From positions 1-62,690 of the forward strand of contig JABCYQ010000016.1 of assembly GCA_013290125.1 (NCBI GenBank): a stretch of 62,690 bases of DNA. Direction: 5' to 3'. This document shows positions 8,088 through 19,091 of this stretch, in pieces (within the stretch, counting starts at the first letter, position 1; each line of letters opens with the position of its first letter). This DNA is from Vulcanimicrobiota bacterium (GTDB taxonomy: Bacteria; Vulcanimicrobiota; Vulcanimicrobiia; Eremiobacterales; Eremiobacteraceae). The notes beneath the pieces were generated by a model. It was not told the origin of the DNA, ran no database searches, and was given only the letters and a program-made list of their open reading frames with translations. Both the position numbers and the translations under genes were made by a program.

Positions 8088-8819
8088 CTAGAGGGAATCG
8101 AGCCGACCGCCGTCCACGATCAGCGTCGTGCCGTTGACGAATTTCGCATCATCTGACGCCAAGAAGCAGATCGCGGCTGCGAGATCTTCCGGCTTCCCGA
8201 TAGCTCCGGTCACCTTCTCCGCGCCGCTCTTTACGTTTGGATTATTCCAGAGCATGGGAGTGTCAACCGCTCCAGGGGCGACTGCATTGACCCGGATCTG
8301 CCGCGATGCCATCTCGATGCTAAAGCCGCGCGTAAACGCCTCAATAGCGCCTTTAGACGAGGCGTAAGGCACCACATTCGGCGTGGTGGCGTGCGCGTGC
8401 ACCGAGCTGAGGTTGACGAACGACGAGCCGGGGCGCATGTGCGGGGCGCCGTACTTCGCAAAAAAGAAGACCGAACCGAGGTTCGTGGTCAACACGTGGA
8501 AGAAATCAGACTCCACTGTTTCCACGATCGGCGTGAACGTCATCATTGCCGCGTCGTTGACGATGACGTCGATAGCGCCGTATTGCGCGACCGCCTGAGC
8601 GATCACTGACTGTACTTGCGCCGTATCCCCGACATCGACCGCGACGGCGATCGAATGCCCGCCAGCAGCAGCGATCGCGGAAACGGTGGCGGAAGCAGCG
8701 TCGAGATGCAGATCGGCGACCACCACGTTGCCACCTTCGGCGGCCATCTGAAGACAGGTCGCGCGGCCGATCCCCGAACCGCCGCCGGTCACGATACACG
8801 TCTTTCCGGTGAACCTCAT
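8088..8819 (-). CDS. Short-chain dehydrogenase/reductase (SDR), NAD(P)-dependent
   Basis: The 243-residue classical SDR has the cofactor motif TGGGSGIG at 11-18 and the catalytic set N113, S139, Y152 and K156 (YASSK). NDAA stands in place of the usual NNAG at 88-91, and VNAVAPGAVDTPM is in the expected place. The substrate cannot be read from sequence; the family acts on sugars, steroids, acyl chains and many alcohols. I start it at ATG 8819, where family homology begins (MRFTGKTCIVTGGG). An upstream ATG at 8864 would overlap the divergent glycosidase start. The two genes diverge across about 43 bp and may share control. Confidence 0.88.
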   Translation of the reverse strand: MRFTGKTCIVTGGGSGIGRATCLQMAAEGGNVVVADLHLDAASATVSAIAAAGGHSIAVAVDVGDTAQVQSVIAQAVAQYGAIDVIVNDAAMMTFTPIVETVESDFFHVLTTNLGSVFFFAKYGAPHMRPGSSFVNLSSVHAHATTPNVVPYASSKGAIEAFTRGFSIEMASRQIRVNAVAPGAVDTPMLWNNPNVKSGAEKVTGAIGKPEDLAAAICFLASDDAKFVNGTTLIVDGGRLDSL

Positions 8820-8862: not shown

Positions 8863-10998
8863 ATGCAGCGAGATTTTCGATTCGGCGTGGCGACGGCCGA
8901 CCATCAGTGCGAGGCGTACAACGGCCGTGACGATATCCGCGATGTCTGGGAGCGCGTTCGCGGCCTGACCCCGCGCGGTACGGCCACCGACTTCTGGAAC
9001 CGCTATCGCGAGGATGTGGATCTCGCCAAAGGCCTCGGTTGCCGCGCGTTCCGGTTCTCGCTCTCATGGGCTCGACTCGAACCCGAAGCGGGCGTCTGGG
9101 ATGAGACCGCGTTCGCGCACTATCGCGACGTCTTGCAATACATGCGCGACGCCGGAATGGCAACAGTCGTCACGCTCCATCACAATACGTGGCCGCTGCA
9201 CGTCCAAGCCGCAGGCGACGGCGCCGGCATGCTCGACGAGCGATTCCCGGAGAGAATGCGCGCGTACGCAGAGCAGGTCGCCGTCCGGCTCGGCGATCTC
9301 ATCGACTACTACGTCACGCTCAACGAACCGAATCAGCTCGTCTACGGCTACATCAAAGGTTTTTGGATGCGCTCGTATCCCGTGCCGCCCGGTTTGGAGC
9401 CGTATGCCACAGGCGAACAGCAGATGGACGCGGTTCTGCATCTTATCCCCAATCTGTTCCGCGCTCACGCCCAGGCGCGTCAGGCGATCCGGTCAATTCA
9501 CCCGGAGGCGAAAGTCGGCTCGAACCCGTTGGTGTTGGGCTTGCCGCGCTGGCTGCAGCGGTTGATCGACAGCAACGCGACGCATCTCAGATCGCCCGAG
9601 CAGGCTATTCGCCAGGCTGCGCGACTCTCGCAGCACAAGATCGTAGATTCGGGCTTGGTGGACGTCTCGATCGCGCAGCTCGCGATGACGCAGCAGCGGA
9701 TGAGTCACGTGTTGTTCTCAGAACCGTACGCGATCGCCAAGCCGGCCCTGTTGCGCTCGGCATCGCTCGCAGTCCCGTCAGCACTGCAATCGTGGCCGAT
9801 TCGCGTGGGAGTGATAGCGGACGCGCCTCCGGCAGCGCGCGTCGGCGGTGTGTTCACCGCCGCGCAAGTCGAATACTATCCTGACATCACCTCCGCGGTC
9901 GATGCGCTGCGAAAAGGCTTGATAGACCTCATCTTCGACACCGACATCGTACTGCAGCAATACGCGACGACCGGATTTCAATTGACGCCGCTTCCGGGTC
10001 AAAGCTGGCCGATGTCTGTTGCAGTCGCGCTCGGCAGCCGTTCGCTACTCGATGCAGTGGACCGTGCGCTGCGCGCATTCAAGGAGCGCTACCCGGCTCT
10101 GCCGCGCGATCACAACCGAAAGACGATCGCCGACATCGGAAAGGACGAGCAGTCGCACGGGCGCACGGGCGACGTTCCCGACCTCGACCCTTCGCTTCGC
10201 GCCATCCGCAAACGCGGCGTATTGCGGGTGGGCATTCATCCCAGCGTGGAGGGGATGTGCATGCCGGACGGCACGGGCGGGTACTTTGGGCTAGAGCCGG
10301 ACCTGGCGCGTGCAATCGCGGATGGGATTCTCGGACCGGGCGCGCAGATATCGTTCGTGCCTCTCAGCGGCGACAACCGCTGGAAGTCCACCCGGTCTTC
10401 CATCTTGAGCATCTTCGACGACGTGCGCAAAACGGTCGGCATGTTCGGCACGCTTGTCGGAACGAATTGGTGGAACCTCGGGATGGCGGGGAGGCTGCCG
10501 TCGTTCCTGTGCCCGCCGGAGTGCATAGGTGCGCTCGACTTCGTCGGCATCGACTACTACTGGGGTATTTCATCCATTTGGCCAGGAGAATTGCACCGGC
10601 TCACGGCGGCTGCGGAATGCCACTACGCGATGGCGCCGGTTTGGCCCGGTGTGCTCGACGGTATTTTGCGCGAAGCCGAGGAGCAATTTCCGGGCAAGCC
10701 TATCATCATCATCGAGAATGGTTGCGTGACCGCGACCGACGGATTCACGCGCGCGAATTATCTGAAGGCTCATATCGGACAAGTGGAACGGGCGCTGAAG
10801 CGAGGCTCGCCAATCGACGCCTACCTTTGCTGGAGCATCACGTCGAACCGGGAATGGGGTCTGCCCTTCGACGATAACAGCGATTTCGGATTGTACCACA
10901 TCGATCTCGATCACGATGCGGCGCTGCAACGCATCCCTACCGAGGCGAGCGAGCTCTACGCCGATTTGATCCGCGCGCACTCCGAACTAGCGACGTAG
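8863..10998 (+). CDS. Family 1 glycoside hydrolase with an inserted, apparently circularly permuted family-3 solute-binding domain
   Basis: The 711-residue protein is a GH1 enzyme split in two. Residues 1-about 230 carry the first barrel half (FGVATADHQCEA, FRFSLSWARLEP, TLNEPN with acid/base E155). Residues about 515-711 carry the second half (DFVGIDYYWG, IIIIENG with nucleophile E618, then the SITSNREWG end). Between them lie about 285 residues that read as an SBP_bac_3 binding domain in swapped order. The downstream part comes first (VDSGLVDVSIAQLAMTQQR, FSEPYA, DALRKGLIDLIFDTD; 260-410). After a hydrophilic linker (420-441) comes the normal beginning (LRAIRKRGVLRVGIHPS...YFGLEPDLARAIAD; 445-502). 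Both GH1 catalytic residues are kept. No signal peptide is visible, so it is probably cytoplasmic. Ligand-gated glycosidase activity is an inference. ATG 8863 matches the GH1 N-terminus; ATG 8809 is less likely. Confidence 0.85.
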   Translation: MQRDFRFGVATADHQCEAYNGRDDIRDVWERVRGLTPRGTATDFWNRYREDVDLAKGLGCRAFRFSLSWARLEPEAGVWDETAFAHYRDVLQYMRDAGMATVVTLHHNTWPLHVQAAGDGAGMLDERFPERMRAYAEQVAVRLGDLIDYYVTLNEPNQLVYGYIKGFWMRSYPVPPGLEPYATGEQQMDAVLHLIPNLFRAHAQARQAIRSIHPEAKVGSNPLVLGLPRWLQRLIDSNATHLRSPEQAIRQAARLSQHKIVDSGLVDVSIAQLAMTQQRMSHVLFSEPYAIAKPALLRSASLAVPSALQSWPIRVGVIADAPPAARVGGVFTAAQVEYYPDITSAVDALRKGLIDLIFDTDIVLQQYATTGFQLTPLPGQSWPMSVAVALGSRSLLDAVDRALRAFKERYPALPRDHNRKTIADIGKDEQSHGRTGDVPDLDPSLRAIRKRGVLRVGIHPSVEGMCMPDGTGGYFGLEPDLARAIADGILGPGAQISFVPLSGDNRWKSTRSSILSIFDDVRKTVGMFGTLVGTNWWNLGMAGRLPSFLCPPECIGALDFVGIDYYWGISSIWPGELHRLTAAAECHYAMAPVWPGVLDGILREAEEQFPGKPIIIIENGCVTATDGFTRANYLKAHIGQVERALKRGSPIDAYLCWSITSNREWGLPFDDNSDFGLYHIDLDHDAALQRIPTEASELYADLIRAHSELAT

Positions 10999-11130
10999 AA
11001 GCGAGTACCGATAAGTCTCGGGCGCCTATGGAGTCCTGGGATGTATTCCGGAATCGTTGTTGAACTGCGCCGCGAGATTTCGCGTTCCGGAGATCGTGCC
11101 GGACAAAAAGCAAAGCAAGGAGCGCAACCC

Positions 11131-11763
11131 GTGCAACAAATCGTCCTCACACAAATGGAAGCGGCGACGAGCAGCCGCAATCTTCTTGAGCACTCGTTCT
11201 ACAAGCGCTGGCTCGTGGGCGACCTGACGAAGAGCGAACTGGCGGACTACGCAGCGCAGTACTATCACGTCGTCGCAGCACTGCCGAGATGGTTGGAAAC
11301 AGCCGCCGCACAGCAGCCGGCATATCGCGAAACGTTGCTCGCCCATGCTGCCGAAGAATCGGCCCACGTGCGCCTGTGGGAGCGGTTCGCAGGGGCCTGC
11401 GGAGTTTCGACCGACGCGCTGCGATCCACAAAGCCGAATGAAGCCACTGCTTCCATGCTAAGCAACTGTGACGTCGCCGCAGATGCCGGCAACGCCGCCG
11501 CTGTCGCATGGGCACTCGAGGTGCAGACGCCTGCCGTCTCCAGAGAAAAGATGAAGGGGCTCGAAAAGTTCTACGGCATCGATGCTCGCAGCGGCGGCGA
11601 GTACTTCGCTCTCCACGAGCGGCTCGACGTGGAACATGCGGCCGAGCTGGAGCGGGTGATCGCAAGCCAGGAGCCGCCATTTGGAGCGGGTGCGCCCAGT
11701 GCGGCGTTGGTGGCGGCCGACGGTCTCTGGAAGATACTGTCCTCGGTCGAGCACGCGGCCTGA
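11131..11763 (+). CDS. Heme-oxygenase-like diiron oxidase (TenA/PqqC/CADD fold)
   Basis: The 210-residue all-helical protein fits the iron-containing redox enzyme family related to PqqC and chlamydial CADD. It has HSFYKRWLVGDLTKSELADYAAQYYHVV at 21-48, a ligand helix AEESAHVRLWERF (E75, E76 and H79) and a second ligand helix RLDVEHAAELE near 170. Known relatives include CADD and NE1434, which make p-aminobenzoate at the expense of their own side chains, and various oxygenases. Which reaction applies here is unknown. I start it at GTG 11131 because AAGGAG lies 8 nt upstream; longer frames from 11041 lack a site. A short palindromic repeat follows the stop codon. The large BTAD regulator is the next gene on this strand. 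Confidence 0.72.
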   Translation: MQQIVLTQMEAATSSRNLLEHSFYKRWLVGDLTKSELADYAAQYYHVVAALPRWLETAAAQQPAYRETLLAHAAEESAHVRLWERFAGACGVSTDALRSTKPNEATASMLSNCDVAADAGNAAAVAWALEVQTPAVSREKMKGLEKFYGIDARSGGEYFALHERLDVEHAAELERVIASQEPPFGAGAPSAALVAADGLWKILSSVEHAA

Positions 11764-14900: not shown

Positions 14901-15174
14901 TGCGGACCTTGCCCGAGAAGCCGGCGACGTCCGCGGACAGCGATTTGCAGTCGAACGGCTGTTGGAAGTCGCACCCTTCGAACTCGAGGCGGTGAAGATG
15001 CGTCTCGAGGCCCTCTGCCGCGAATCCCGCGTTGCGGAAGCTAAGCGCGACTATGAGGAGTGGCGGTCCCGCTACCGAGCGGCTGTGGGGGCAGATGCAC
15101 CCGAAATCTGGGGGGGCGCCGACGCCAAGTCAGCGGCGCAGATGTCCCAAGAATCGACGCCAGCAGCGATATAA
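11983..15174 (+). CDS. Large ATP-binding MalT-like regulator with C-terminal winged helix and BTAD (SARP-type) domain
   Basis: The 1063-residue protein opens with a STAND-type NTPase (Walker A GPGYGKT at 39-45; FVFDDVHQLEG near 125). TPR-like helical repeats fill roughly 340-780. It closes with a winged-helix DNA-binding domain (LRIEMLGQLRVLVEGEPVP from about 809, then NLRVTITAIRKAVGD) and a BTAD domain (about 910-1050, YRGDFLEGM...WRERELLRAG). Such proteins switch on target operons when a ligand or partner triggers ATP-driven assembly. The start is GTG 11983; it has no clear ribosome binding site. Two secreted proteases follow on the same strand, and sequences resembling TCGCGGTTTGT precede this gene and both proteases, so they may be its targets. 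Confidence 0.88.
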   Translation: MFVHRLKLRPPQVLATWLERPHLEKRLHSAVRVVSLAAGPGYGKTVLAARLFGEWTGKRLWYGLDATDRDLSVFAAHMNAGIKSFDVEPPKFDASAANTLGSPKEVGTRFAECLAETAHTTLFVFDDVHQLEGGRALGALAEFVERCCKLGASFILCGRTIPISLHNVAASAQLVAIGAGDLAFSQTETDTFLKRARGESERPNGIHHLAERAEGWAAGLALIASNRSTGEADPKRDALTARDDDARQYLFDYLAAEVLDSLSERERRFLEETSILDQLETALCDAIRDADDSRALLESFTRRGLFVTRQSDDAYNYHQLFRDFLRHTLTRSHQSDAVAQLHRRAAAFLTARGDAPLAIEHQLDAGDDADAAAALEGAAFKLLRAGLVTSVNGLMRRLGTARIEASPTLLAALGHVQRDRGEWDAALSSLERSMSAARASKAYDILAEAVRISAPILASRGEFDRLRTMLDEALSPGFELPETSLTSLRMTRAAVDVETDRLDDALAMYREITPTLVARGDLAAHGQVLHNTAVAHLRRGDVYAGLSMYERALKLKESAGQRVSMLTTLGDLVYVKTLLGDVDEAQRLVEPLISQAKDLGATAIVARGLEQRGVHCLLHGDIGGALEAFRSAEAVCDPGDMLVLPDIEHGLAQCALRAGQIADADTLCARAIAVFRGAGRRQQVAPILLTRALCALASGDVSLATRLAREALAASADGPNALFNASVCLDAASVLMRCAPEMPAADAADCDRDASQAVTTAVAIVHQRDYRFLLRTKAAAFEQLLPHMRRWRVGSGLIPDIKSDAAAVPLRIEMLGQLRVLVEGEPVPPESWKRRRALEIFAYLVECAGAGVSRARLIDLFWPESDADAAHDNLRVTITAIRKAVGDIIKYESNAYRFVAPIGTTVDVQEFNAHIDAARQADGSGNVAEARKRYQSAVDLYRGDFLEGMQEGGWQWRERELLRAGCLEGLRWLADLAREAGDVRGQRFAVERLLEVAPFELEAVKMRLEALCRESRVAEAKRDYEEWRSRYRAAVGADAPEIWGGADAKSAAQMSQESTPAAI

Positions 15175-15242
15175 AACGGCAACTCTTGTTCGCGGTTTGT
15201 CACAGTTCCGGGTATATGATGGGCACGCCAGGAGGACGATTG

Positions 15243-16916
15243 ATGAACCACCGCTTCGCAGTCGCGTCCGTGATCGCCGCATGCTCGCTTTTCTGGGGCA
15301 CGTCTGCATTGGCCCTCGCCGGTGACGGCGTTGCGGCGTCCGTGCCTATGTTCGAACAGGTCGCGACGCTCGTCGGGCCTGCTTCGCCGACGCGGCAGAT
15401 CCATTTGGTGGTCTTTCTCGCATATCCAAACCAGTCCGCCGTCGACAACTTCACGCAGTCGGTGAACAATCCGGGATCGCCGATGTACGGCGCGTTTCTG
15501 ACGCCGCACCAGTTCAATGCACAGTTCGCGCCGTCAGGGAGCACCTACTCGACAGTCGAGTACCTGGTCACCGGCGCTGGCATGAAGGTCGTGCAGTCGT
15601 ACGCCAACCACAAGGTGATCGACGTCGTCGCAACGGTTGCGCAGGCGGATGCATTTTTCAACACGGTCATCGACGAGTACAGTTATCAGAACGTCGCGTA
15701 CTACGCGAACTCCGTTCCCGCGCTCGTGCCCAGGGCTCTGCATGGCGTGGTCATGGCGGTGAGCGGCTTCAATAATTTCGCGCATAAATTCGCGACCCCG
15801 CTAGCGTCATTGCCGGGGCCGAGCGGATTCGGACCGCTCGACATCCAGACAGCGTACAACGAACCGATCCACGTCAACCGCGCGGTCAACGGCGCCGGCG
15901 CTACGCTCGCGGTCGAGACAGTGTACGACTATATGGACTCCGACCTCACCGGCTATTGGAGCGCCTTTGGCGTGCAGCACCCCGGTTTCGTGGAACGCGT
16001 TATAGTCGGCGACCCGGTGAATCAAGGTCTTCCGGCGCCCGGACAGAGCGATGAGACCACGTTGGACGTGCAGCAGACCACGAGCAACGCGCCCGGCGCG
16101 AACGCGCTCATATATGAAGGCGCGGATCCGCTCAACTCGACGTTTGACGACATCTACGAGCAGACCGTGGTCGATCCGCGCATCGACGTCGTGACCACGT
16201 CGTGGGGATCATGCGAAGCCGGTGCCGACGCAAATGAAGTCGCGGCGGATAACGATCTGTTCGAGCAAGGCGCCGCAGAAGGTCAGACCAGGTTCGCCGC
16301 GTCCGGCGATAACGGGTCTAAGGATTGCGGAACGAACAACCCACCGGACGGCCTGCCCGGCCAACCGAATCCGATCAACGTCGATTTCCCAGCGAGCTCT
16401 CCTTGGATCGGCGCATCCGGCGGCACCACCCTCGTACTCAACTCGAATCGAACGATCCACTCCGAAATCGCGTGGTCGGGAAGCGGCGGCGGCGTGTCGG
16501 GTTTCTTCGCGTTGCCCCCATATCAATCGGTCGTCCCGACGCTGGCCAATCCGAACTATCGAAACGTGCCGGACGTCGCGCTGGACGCGGATCCCAATAC
16601 TCCGTACGCGCTATTCTACTTTGGATCGTGGGCTCTATCCGTGGGCGGTACGAGCGCAGTCGCGCCGAATATGGCAGCGCTGTATTCGCAGATCGACGGC
16701 TATTACGGACGGAGACTCGGCCTCGCCCAGACCGGGCTCTACTACGGCTTCGTCCGCCAGACATACCCTGGTCGGACCTGGCACGACATCGTCAGCGGAA
16801 CCAACGGCGACTTCTCCGCGCACGCGGGCTATGACAATGTGACCGGTGTCGGGTCGCTCAATGGCAACGCCTACATGCAGCAGGTTCCGCGAACGCGCCA
16901 CAAGACGCCGCTGTAA
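15243..16916 (+). CDS. Secreted S53 family serine-carboxyl protease (sedolisin), copy 1
   Basis: The 557-residue pre-pro-enzyme has a signal peptide (about 1-25, ending near SALALAG), a Pro-kumamolisin activation domain (about 35-195) and an S53 catalytic domain. The Glu/Asp pair is E271 and D275 (DETTLDVQQ), and the nucleophile is S471 in GGTSAVAP. The C-terminal calcium loop is HDIVSGTNGDF...GYDNVTGVGS. Sedolisins work in acid, which suits growth in acidic soil. I chose ATG 15243 because GGAGGACG lies just upstream and the signal peptide starts there; longer frames extend back into the regulator. It lies 68 bp after the BTAD regulator stop and is the first of two sedolisins. Confidence 0.93.
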   Translation: MNHRFAVASVIAACSLFWGTSALALAGDGVAASVPMFEQVATLVGPASPTRQIHLVVFLAYPNQSAVDNFTQSVNNPGSPMYGAFLTPHQFNAQFAPSGSTYSTVEYLVTGAGMKVVQSYANHKVIDVVATVAQADAFFNTVIDEYSYQNVAYYANSVPALVPRALHGVVMAVSGFNNFAHKFATPLASLPGPSGFGPLDIQTAYNEPIHVNRAVNGAGATLAVETVYDYMDSDLTGYWSAFGVQHPGFVERVIVGDPVNQGLPAPGQSDETTLDVQQTTSNAPGANALIYEGADPLNSTFDDIYEQTVVDPRIDVVTTSWGSCEAGADANEVAADNDLFEQGAAEGQTRFAASGDNGSKDCGTNNPPDGLPGQPNPINVDFPASSPWIGASGGTTLVLNSNRTIHSEIAWSGSGGGVSGFFALPPYQSVVPTLANPNYRNVPDVALDADPNTPYALFYFGSWALSVGGTSAVAPNMAALYSQIDGYYGRRLGLAQTGLYYGFVRQTYPGRTWHDIVSGTNGDFSAHAGYDNVTGVGSLNGNAYMQQVPRTRHKTPL

Positions 16917-17069: not shown

Positions 17070-17207
17070 CAACACGTTTTTAGCTCGTTGCTGAACTGTT
17101 CGCGGGTTGTAACCCTCGGAGTGTTATGGTACGGATGCCGGCGAGCCACGGTGTGCCGGTACTGTATGCCATGCCGGCCTAGCCGGTCCGTAAGGAGTAC
17201 GAACCCG

Positions 17208-19091
17208 ATGAATGTATCGAAGATCTTGTTCGCGACGGCACTGCTCGCGATCGCGGCGCCTGCGGCAGCAGCCGAGCGCTCGTTCTCGCGCAGCATTCCG
17301 AGCGTCACCTGGGCGCAGACCGCCACACAGGCGGTGCCCCTTGCGGCGACGCCGCAACGCGCATTCGCGCTCGGTCGATTGTCGGACTCGGTGCCGCTGC
17401 GCATCGTCGTAGGTCTGGGCATGCGCGATCGTGCGGGCGCCGACCGATTGATCCGGCGACAATACACGCCCGCCGACGTGATGTTCCACAACTTCTTGAC
17501 TCCCGCGCAGTTCACGGCTGCATTCAATCCTACGCGGTCTCAGGCGGTCGCGGTCGCCGCGTACCTGCAGAGCAAAGGCTTTACGGACATCGGCATCGAG
17601 CCGAACAACCTGATCGTGACTGCGACAGCCAATGCCTCACGAGCCGAAGCGGCGTTCAACACGGCGATCCGCGCGACGCAGTACAATGGCCGAGTCTTCT
17701 ATGGCAACGTCACGCCCGCGATGGTCCCGACGCAACTTCGGGGATTGGTCGTGGCCGTGCTCGGCCTGACGAACGCCTATCGCATGCGGACCCACAGCCA
17801 CGTGACGCGCTACAATCCGCCGGCCCAGCCGCACAACGCCGGTCCCCAGGTCGCTGCGGCGAACACGCCGCCTCCGTGCCTTCAGGTGGTGAACGGGATC
17901 TGCATCGGCGGCGAATACAGCCCTCCGCAATATCAGGTCGCCTACGACGCATGCGCGAAGGCCTGCACCGGCGCCTACACGTCGATCGCCGTGATGGCGG
18001 AAGGCAACGTCACTCAAGTCGTCAAGGATTTGCGTTATGCAGAGAACTTCTGGGCTCTGCCCCAAGTGCCGTACTCAGTGGTCAAGGTCGGCGTGTCCAG
18101 CATCGACGTCTCCGGCCTCGATGAGTGGGATTTGGATACCCAGATATCGAGCGGAATCGCTCAAAAAGTGAAACATCTCTACCTCTACGACACGTCGTCG
18201 CTCAACGATTCGGACATCTCGCTTGAAGTCAGTCACTGGGTCAACGATGATCTCGCGCAAGCCGGCAACTCGTCGTTCGGCGAACCTGAGACGCTGGCGT
18301 ACGCCGACGGCTCGATGCTGGTGGACGACGAAGAGTTCAATCAAGCAGCGGCGCAGGGTCAGACCATGTTCGCCTCGACCGGTGACAACGGCGAAGGCTG
18401 CCCGGTGCTCGCCGCCACGGGCGCACCGCTCACGGGCACACCGGAGAATTGCTATCCAGCTACGTCGCCGTACGTCGTAGCGGTCGGCGGCACCACGCTC
18501 GATACGAACGCGAACGGCACCGGGCCGGGAACGTACTATGGCGAGCATGCATGGGTCGCGACCGGCGGCGGCTTCAGCACCGTGGAGTTCGCGCCGTACT
18601 GGGAGACGAATGGCATCGACCAGGGCGCGACGGTGCTCGGTGAAGCGGGCACAGGCCGGGGCATGTCCGACATCTCGATGTGCGCTGACAACAACGGCTG
18701 TCCGATGGACGTCGTCGTGAACGAACCGGCGACTTCCGGCGTCGGCGGCACGAGTCTCTCGTCGCCCATGTCGATGGGCGTCTGGGCTCGGCTAGAATCG
18801 AGCAACTTCAACAAACTCGGCTTTGCGGCTCCGGTGCTCTACGGAGTGTATGGCTTCTACGAACCATGTCCGCTCGGATCAAAGGAGTGCGTGCCGGTAT
18901 CGGAGACGATGACGACCGCGCTGCCGCCGGACGAGACCGGGATCATCGGCGGCTTCCACGACATCTTGTTCGGCGACAACGGCTTAGGAGCGCCGGCGGG
19001 ACCCGGCTGGGATACGCCGACTGGCCTAGGTTCGATCGACATCTGCGCGATGCAGGCAGACATCAAGAACTCGATATTCTCAGGTCACTGA
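17208..19091 (+). CDS. Secreted S53 family serine-carboxyl protease (sedolisin), copy 2
   Basis: The 627-residue protein has a signal peptide (residues 1-22, cut near AAAAE), a Pro-kumamolisin domain (about 45-200, with the QYTPADVMFHNFLTPAQF block) and a catalytic domain. The catalytic pair is E306 and D310 (DEWDLD), and the nucleophile is S516 (GGTSLSSP). Compared with copy 1 it has extra Cys residues (PPCLQVVNGIC, DACAKACTG, CADNNGC) that suggest disulfides outside the cytoplasm. It is divergent in sequence from copy 1, so not a recent duplicate. AAGGAG stands 11 nt before ATG 17208. A calcium loop near the end (FHDILFGDNGLGAPAGPGWDTPTGLGS) is intact. A palindromic terminator-like repeat follows. 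Confidence 0.93.
   Translation: MNVSKILFATALLAIAAPAAAAERSFSRSIPSVTWAQTATQAVPLAATPQRAFALGRLSDSVPLRIVVGLGMRDRAGADRLIRRQYTPADVMFHNFLTPAQFTAAFNPTRSQAVAVAAYLQSKGFTDIGIEPNNLIVTATANASRAEAAFNTAIRATQYNGRVFYGNVTPAMVPTQLRGLVVAVLGLTNAYRMRTHSHVTRYNPPAQPHNAGPQVAAANTPPPCLQVVNGICIGGEYSPPQYQVAYDACAKACTGAYTSIAVMAEGNVTQVVKDLRYAENFWALPQVPYSVVKVGVSSIDVSGLDEWDLDTQISSGIAQKVKHLYLYDTSSLNDSDISLEVSHWVNDDLAQAGNSSFGEPETLAYADGSMLVDDEEFNQAAAQGQTMFASTGDNGEGCPVLAATGAPLTGTPENCYPATSPYVVAVGGTTLDTNANGTGPGTYYGEHAWVATGGGFSTVEFAPYWETNGIDQGATVLGEAGTGRGMSDISMCADNNGCPMDVVVNEPATSGVGGTSLSSPMSMGVWARLESSNFNKLGFAAPVLYGVYGFYEPCPLGSKECVPVSETMTTALPPDETGIIGGFHDILFGDNGLGAPAGPGWDTPTGLGSIDICAMQADIKNSIFSGH

Follow-up and report, generated by a model that had tools for sequence, protein, structure and literature searches.

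A GH1 glycosidase family with a nested, circularly permuted SBP_bac_3 domain

How can a solute-binding domain be placed inside a glycoside hydrolase, and what could it do there? The question is raised by a single open frame of 711 codons at positions 8863–10998 on the forward strand of the window (the whole stretch of 62,690 nucleotides analysed here). The initial annotation described it as two halves of a GH1 barrel flanking an SBP_bac_3 domain in swapped order. The frame, the product length of 711 aa, the two GH1 halves, and the two catalytic glutamates (E155 in TLNEPN and E618 in IIENG) are all located as claimed, and so are the polar linker and the two SBP3 stretches. The product is a GH1 glycosidase with a nested, circularly permuted SBP_bac_3 domain. 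Pfam finds GH1 in two stretches, with SBP_bac_3 in two stretches between these, best from profile position 54. The parts of the gene are as follows.

8863..9558, + strand: N-terminal half of the GH1 barrel, residues 1–232, strands 1–5 (Pfam Glyco_hydro_1 at residues 3–221), with the acid/base E155 (9325–9327), Q15, H107 and N154 of the active site
9559..9636, + strand: family-specific helices leading from strand 5 to the insert, residues 233–258 (AlphaFold helices 229–240 and 245–256)
9637..9738, + strand: middle part of SBP3 lobe I, residues 259–292, the first piece of the permuted domain (SBP_bac_3 profile from position 54), carrying T276, R279 and FSEPY
9739..10014, + strand: SBP3 lobe II, residues 293–384 (model pLDDT ~90)
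10015..10107, + strand: return strand and C-terminal helix of SBP3 lobe I, residues 385–415 (AncQR alignment), still present in members without lobe II
10108..10185, + strand: polar linker from the original SBP C-terminus to the original N-terminus, residues 416–441 (pLDDT <50 at 417–436), the most variable region
10186..10383, + strand: original N-terminal part of SBP3 lobe I, residues 442–507, the last piece of the permuted domain (it precedes query 260–370 in standalone SBP3s and gives a one-piece match when de-permuted)
10384..10458, + strand: return into the barrel, helix 5 region, residues 508–532 (AlphaFold helix 513–529)
10459..10998, + strand: C-terminal half of the GH1 barrel, residues 533–711 and stop, strands 6–8 (PDB GH1 matches fall in two stretches, for example query 538–707 to 8znv), with the nucleophile E618 (10714–10716), W657, E664 and W665 of the active site

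The insert is ~290 residues long and lies between barrel strands 5 and 6, or more precisely between strand 5 and helix 5. It splits the GH1 domain as annotated, but the boundaries shift to residues ~233–258 before the insert and 508–532 after it. In the helices entering the insert D236, A239 and T240 are conserved, and in the return region R511, S513 and T530 are nearly invariant. From strand 5 to strand 6 the family has ~338 residues, against ~48 in the closest uninterrupted GH1 found among the plasmids (Embleya, L087). The insert thus follows strand 5 and lies on the catalytic face of the barrel. In GH1 enzymes, this side of the barrel contributes to aglycone binding.

The host enzyme appears complete. 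The PF00232 match, in two stretches, reaches 151.2 bits against a cut-off of 22.6. In the AlphaFold model of the whole protein (22 sequences, mean pLDDT 78.6, pTM 0.78), a complete GH1 barrel is aligned with solved structures at VIA Z 31–32.5 over 348–388 residues, and the full-model alignment runs from 1 to 709. H107, N154, Y566, E618, W657, E664 and W665 are seen in 48/48 members and E155 in 47/48, and Q15 is kept in all 47 members having that position. Residue 564 (10552–10554) is Asp in 48/48, where GH1s usually have the Asn of GINYY. The catalytic residue set is complete, so the protein is predicted to be a GH1 beta-glycosidase. The sole exception at the acid/base is L065, a member without lobe II, which has TLNAPN with Ala at the position equivalent to 155; L021 is apparently the same gene. 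With Ala replacing the catalytic acid/base, this protein may be inactive as a hydrolase.

The canonical order of SBP_bac_3 is not kept in the insert, which is permuted between residues 507 and 260. A de-permuted query, 437–507 joined to 260–425, matches six ordinary SBP3s of the phylum (L070–L075), each in one colinear stretch. L070 is matched at 53.8 bits in one stretch (E 6e-15) by the de-permuted query and at 40.2 bits in two stretches by the native order. The same pattern is seen for L071, L073, L074 and L075, and L072 is matched by the de-permuted query only. The native order scores lower for every ordinary SBP3 still matched. Against PF00497 (cut-off 26.4), the native order scores 40.2 bits for the whole protein and 44.3 for the insert alone, and the de-permuted order scores 49.5 in one stretch. 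A profile of 11 de-permuted inserts aligns with AncQR (4zv1) unbroken over positions 9–221 (E 3e-37). In the standalone SBP3s of the phylum, the counterpart of query 442–507 is followed, after 3 bases, by that of query 260–370 (for example, G128:C4 and G122:C105). Chance does not explain the permuted order that was first proposed for this gene, and the permutation point is the loop after the third strand of lobe I. Since the de-permuted match is colinear and 442–507 directly precedes 260–370 in ordinary SBP3s, the new ends are chain neighbours there. The permutation thus puts the two ends of the inserted domain side by side, which had been part of the original proposal.

In the fold search, the whole model matched GH1 only, and the insert was therefore predicted separately. 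The insert-only model (27 sequences, pLDDT 83.4) is aligned at VIA Z 14.0 to SocA (rmsd 2.2, 150 residues) and at VIA Z 12.6–14 to many amino-acid SBP3s over ~150 residues. These matches identify a two-lobed SBP fold, in agreement with the annotated reading. Most of the SBP3 alignments start at model residue 27 and cover the portion that leads in the insert but takes second place in ordinary SBP3s. The aligner is sequential and misses the permuted remainder, which is covered by the sequence match of the AncQR profile. SocA binds sugar-amino-acid conjugates and was considered as a clue to the ligand, but it was dropped, as its top score is tied with many amino-acid binders.

The top Foldseek match of the insert is the tandem-SBP protein BvgS, and EvgS and the tandem of GlnPQ are also listed. 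Foldseek spreads the permuted insert over two tandem SBP domains in 274–290 columns (4q0c, 9ilw, 6h30). The match spans tandem copies because a sequential aligner can trace a permuted domain over two tandem SBPs. This suggests how a permutation can arise, and the match is compatible with an origin via tandem duplication.

An unusual gene like this could in principle be a chimeric assembly, a frameshift or a misread domain order. Its strangeness is the one general reason to think so, together with two homologues that are individually broken: L015 is without residues 532–600 (unread bases), and L023 is split across two frames. However, dozens of genomes from separate projects encode the architecture in a single open frame, at 46–86% identity. 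Because it recurs in so many independently assembled genomes, it is neither a frameshift nor a chimera. The homologues, to which the initial annotation had pointed as a possible refutation, instead rule the artefact out; together with the purifying selection seen throughout, they leave this explanation a negligible chance.

Counted by strong matches, the GH1-SBP family is present in 52 of the 149 phylum genomes. The nested architecture is conserved across a bacterial class. In the genome of the window, this gene is the sole GH1, and one ordinary SBP3 is located elsewhere. Beyond the phylum, the search covered one genome-contig scan with the peptides of this protein, and plasmids. The scan gave 24 loci, all in Eremiobacterota-type genomes as titled, and the plasmid records contain plain GH1s only, none spanning 80% of the query. 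Two members (L061 and L062) have an extra in-frame block of ~65 residues inside lobe I, after the equivalent of residue 466. The ends of the block are repeat-like (LRHAQGD and LRQAQDD), and L039 has a short piece, RTLRQAQGD. The block looks like an in-frame repeat element in a surface loop.

In twelve pairs, dN/dS is 0.05–0.12 for GH1, 0.06–0.28 for lobe I, 0.13–0.47 for lobe II and 0.13–0.69 for the linker. The whole family is under purifying selection, lobe II included where it is present. Among the folded parts, lobe II is under the weakest constraint, and it evolves faster than lobe I.

SBP3 domains (PF00497) bind mainly amino acids and opines, and less so the sugars that were also listed for this domain at the outset. 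SBP3s grip the ligand with an Arg of lobe I and, at its amino group, with an Asp of lobe II; R279 and position 360 presumably correspond to these contacts. All 38 full-length members tabulated share T276 and R279. The lobe II Asp is present in 35/39 full-length members; the exceptions are the window protein (T360), its two nearest relatives (A and L) and L062 (N). Near residues 460–466, a G-[LM]-C motif stands where SBP3s have one of the PPF type. From this pattern of Asp, T276 and R279, binding looks alive in most members and doubtful in the window protein, for which the lost Asp and the replaced PPF-type motif also make a typical amino acid ligand doubtful. The conservation of T276 and R279 might also reflect folding.

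These residues bear on the idea, raised in the initial annotation, of a ligand-gated enzyme. As an allosteric switch, the insert would take a free amino acid or opine-like ligand between its lobes, and closure would alter the strand 5–helix 5 loop and raise or lower GH1 activity. Engineers use this architecture (PMC4896006, PMC6335823), and the Asp in 35/39, T276 and R279 in 38/38 full-length members and the purifying selection on lobe II agree with it. However, the clade of the window is without the lobe II Asp, a simple clamp-type switch is difficult to reconcile with lobe II as the least constrained folded part, and lobe II was lost repeatedly while GH1 and lobe I were kept. An allosteric switch is an unlikely explanation of the family.

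Nine members (L017, L018, L019, L022, L024 and L063–L066) are without residues ~293–384, which is all of lobe II, with 4–9 residues remaining. Both pieces of lobe I are retained in the permuted order, and lobe I dN/dS is 0.11–0.18 in two pairs without lobe II. On a tree of GH1 only, the presence and absence of lobe II requires 4 changes by parsimony. A single origin of the nine members is rejected (p-AU 6.7e-8). L019 and the L024/L063–L066 clade may form one group (p 0.45, not rejected), which makes three losses the natural count. Rooting with other GH1s was tried, but the branches are too long for use. The early-branching and most diverged members (L014, L056, L058, L059 and L060) have lobe II, though the tree is not firmly rooted. 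As early branches have lobe II and regain of the same SBP lobe is implausible, the changes are read as losses. Lobe II was lost cleanly at least twice, and probably three times, with GH1 and the permuted lobe I kept.

The losses could be taken to mean that the insert is a structural or assembly domain, in which binding is lost, the insert completes the barrel as a support of helix 5 or an oligomer interface, and lobe II is vestigial. The loosened constraint on lobe II, the Asp gone in the window clade, the SBP3 side-chain pocket motif not retained, and the change of T276 or R279 in part of the clade without lobe II would fit such a role. It is harder to reconcile with the Asp in 35/39 and R279 and T276 in 38/38 full-length members, deep branches included, and with lobe II dN/dS of 0.13–0.47, which is not neutral. 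A purely structural insert is possible, but it seems somewhat unlikely. It can also be speculated that the family began as a natural switch, in which the permuted SBP was inserted so that its closure gated the active site, and that descendants shed the sensing lobe independently and turned constitutive. We consider this history quite doubtful.

We tentatively prefer a binding module built into the GH1 active site on its aglycone side. Within it, lobe I is most likely an integral binding surface and lobe II a dispensable closing half. As judged from the topology, the permutation would anchor lobe I on this side by the rim of the SBP ligand cleft. In members that have lobe II, both lobes together would still be able to bind a small molecule or moiety resembling an amino acid, and what is bound could control entry to the aglycone site or recognition there. 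The ligand could be either a separate effector or a part of the glycoside. In lineages without lobe II, lobe I alone would be a fixed binding surface, and ligand binding looks reduced or altered, as predicted from the residues left. An isolated SBP3 lobe can bind: the single-domain arginine-binding protein of T. maritima binds arginine at ~3 uM (PMC7589609). The halves of ribose-binding protein show no binding alone (PMC10601554).

The gene neighbourhood adds a partner to the proposed binding module.

8088..8819, - strand: SDR-family dehydrogenase gene, the divergent, conserved partner of the GH1-SBP gene

The two genes are head-to-head, 41–129 bp apart, at nearly all loci with the SDR ortholog; in L018, L020 and L006 the SDR gene lies 1.1–2.2 kb from the GH1-SBP gene. 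Of the 149 genomes, 39 contain the SDR ortholog, 37 of them along with the GH1-SBP gene (Fisher p 2e-20). Of the remaining two, G043 carries a fragment of GH1 at the end of a contig, and in G045 none is detected. A close ortholog of the SDR is absent from fifteen GH1-SBP genomes. The SDR is similar to glucose 1-dehydrogenases, below the cut-off of the model (204.6 vs 215), and the Asp in its VVVADL motif suggests that NAD is preferred. No neighbour besides the SDR gene, and no transporter gene, was found to be recurrent across genera. The LuxR-type regulator and the BTAD regulator of the window were considered as operon partners and rejected, as they are not recurrent at other loci. Directly downstream is a gene of the haem-oxygenase-like/TENA-THI-4 family (11041–11763), which is not recurrent elsewhere, and two adjacent genes with pro-kumamolisin activation domains are located at 15060–16916 and 17088–19091.

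The N-terminus, MQRDFRFGVAT, contains no signal peptide by inspection, unlike the standalone SBP3s of the phylum. The association with export and transporters that is typical of SBP_bac_3 is not seen in this family. The enzyme is most likely cytosolic and would act jointly with the divergent NAD-type SDR, for which a product released by GH1 would be the substrate to be oxidised.

The GH1 and SBP3 parts belong to known families. The combination of nesting and permutation was not found described: no paper on a natural GH1-SBP fusion or permutation was found in the open-access literature, which agrees with the statement of the initial annotation that no natural case was known to it. Together with its SDR partner, the family is a concrete two-gene target in a poorly cultured phylum.

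Comparison with known systems might shed light on this combination. GH1 beta-glucosidases (PF00232; BGL167, 4r27; SGR_2426, 8kap) share the complete barrel (VIA Z ~32), the acid/base and nucleophile Glu, and the Q, H, N, W and EW residues. The GH1-SBP family differs from them in the ~290-residue insert, in D564 for the Asn of GINYY, in a shorter loop between strand 6 and helix 6, and in a longer loop between strand 4 and helix 4. The window protein scores 167.8 with the BGL model, against a cut-off of 478.5. The SBP3s AncQR (4zv1), Peb1A (2v25) and SocA (5l9o) share the two-lobed fold, T-x-x-R, FSEPY and, with most members, the Asp. In contrast to these proteins, the insert is permuted, lies inside an enzyme and is without a signal peptide; some lineages are without lobe II, and the window clade is without the Asp. 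The natural tandem SBP3s (the sensor domains of BvgS and EvgS, and SBD1-SBD2 of GlnPQ) are whole, unpermuted and exported, unlike the insert.

The engineered proteins XynA-XBP271, RG13 and MBP317-347 share the nesting of enzyme and binding protein and the use of permutation and insertion (PMC4896006, PMC6335823). Xylose stimulates a GH11 xylanase that was placed inside a xylose-binding protein (PMC4896006), and beta-lactamase/MBP switches were obtained by permutation and insertion (PMC6335823). Combining circular permutation with the nesting of a binding protein in an enzyme is a central recipe for engineered allosteric switches. A natural and conserved case, with several losses of half of the domain, would permit a comparative test of how switches originate, work and decay. 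In the engineered switches the enzyme lies inside the binding protein, whereas in the GH1-SBP family the permuted binding protein is the guest and the enzyme is the host. The family is natural and conserved, and its likeness to the engineered switches is one of architecture, switching being known for the engineered ones.
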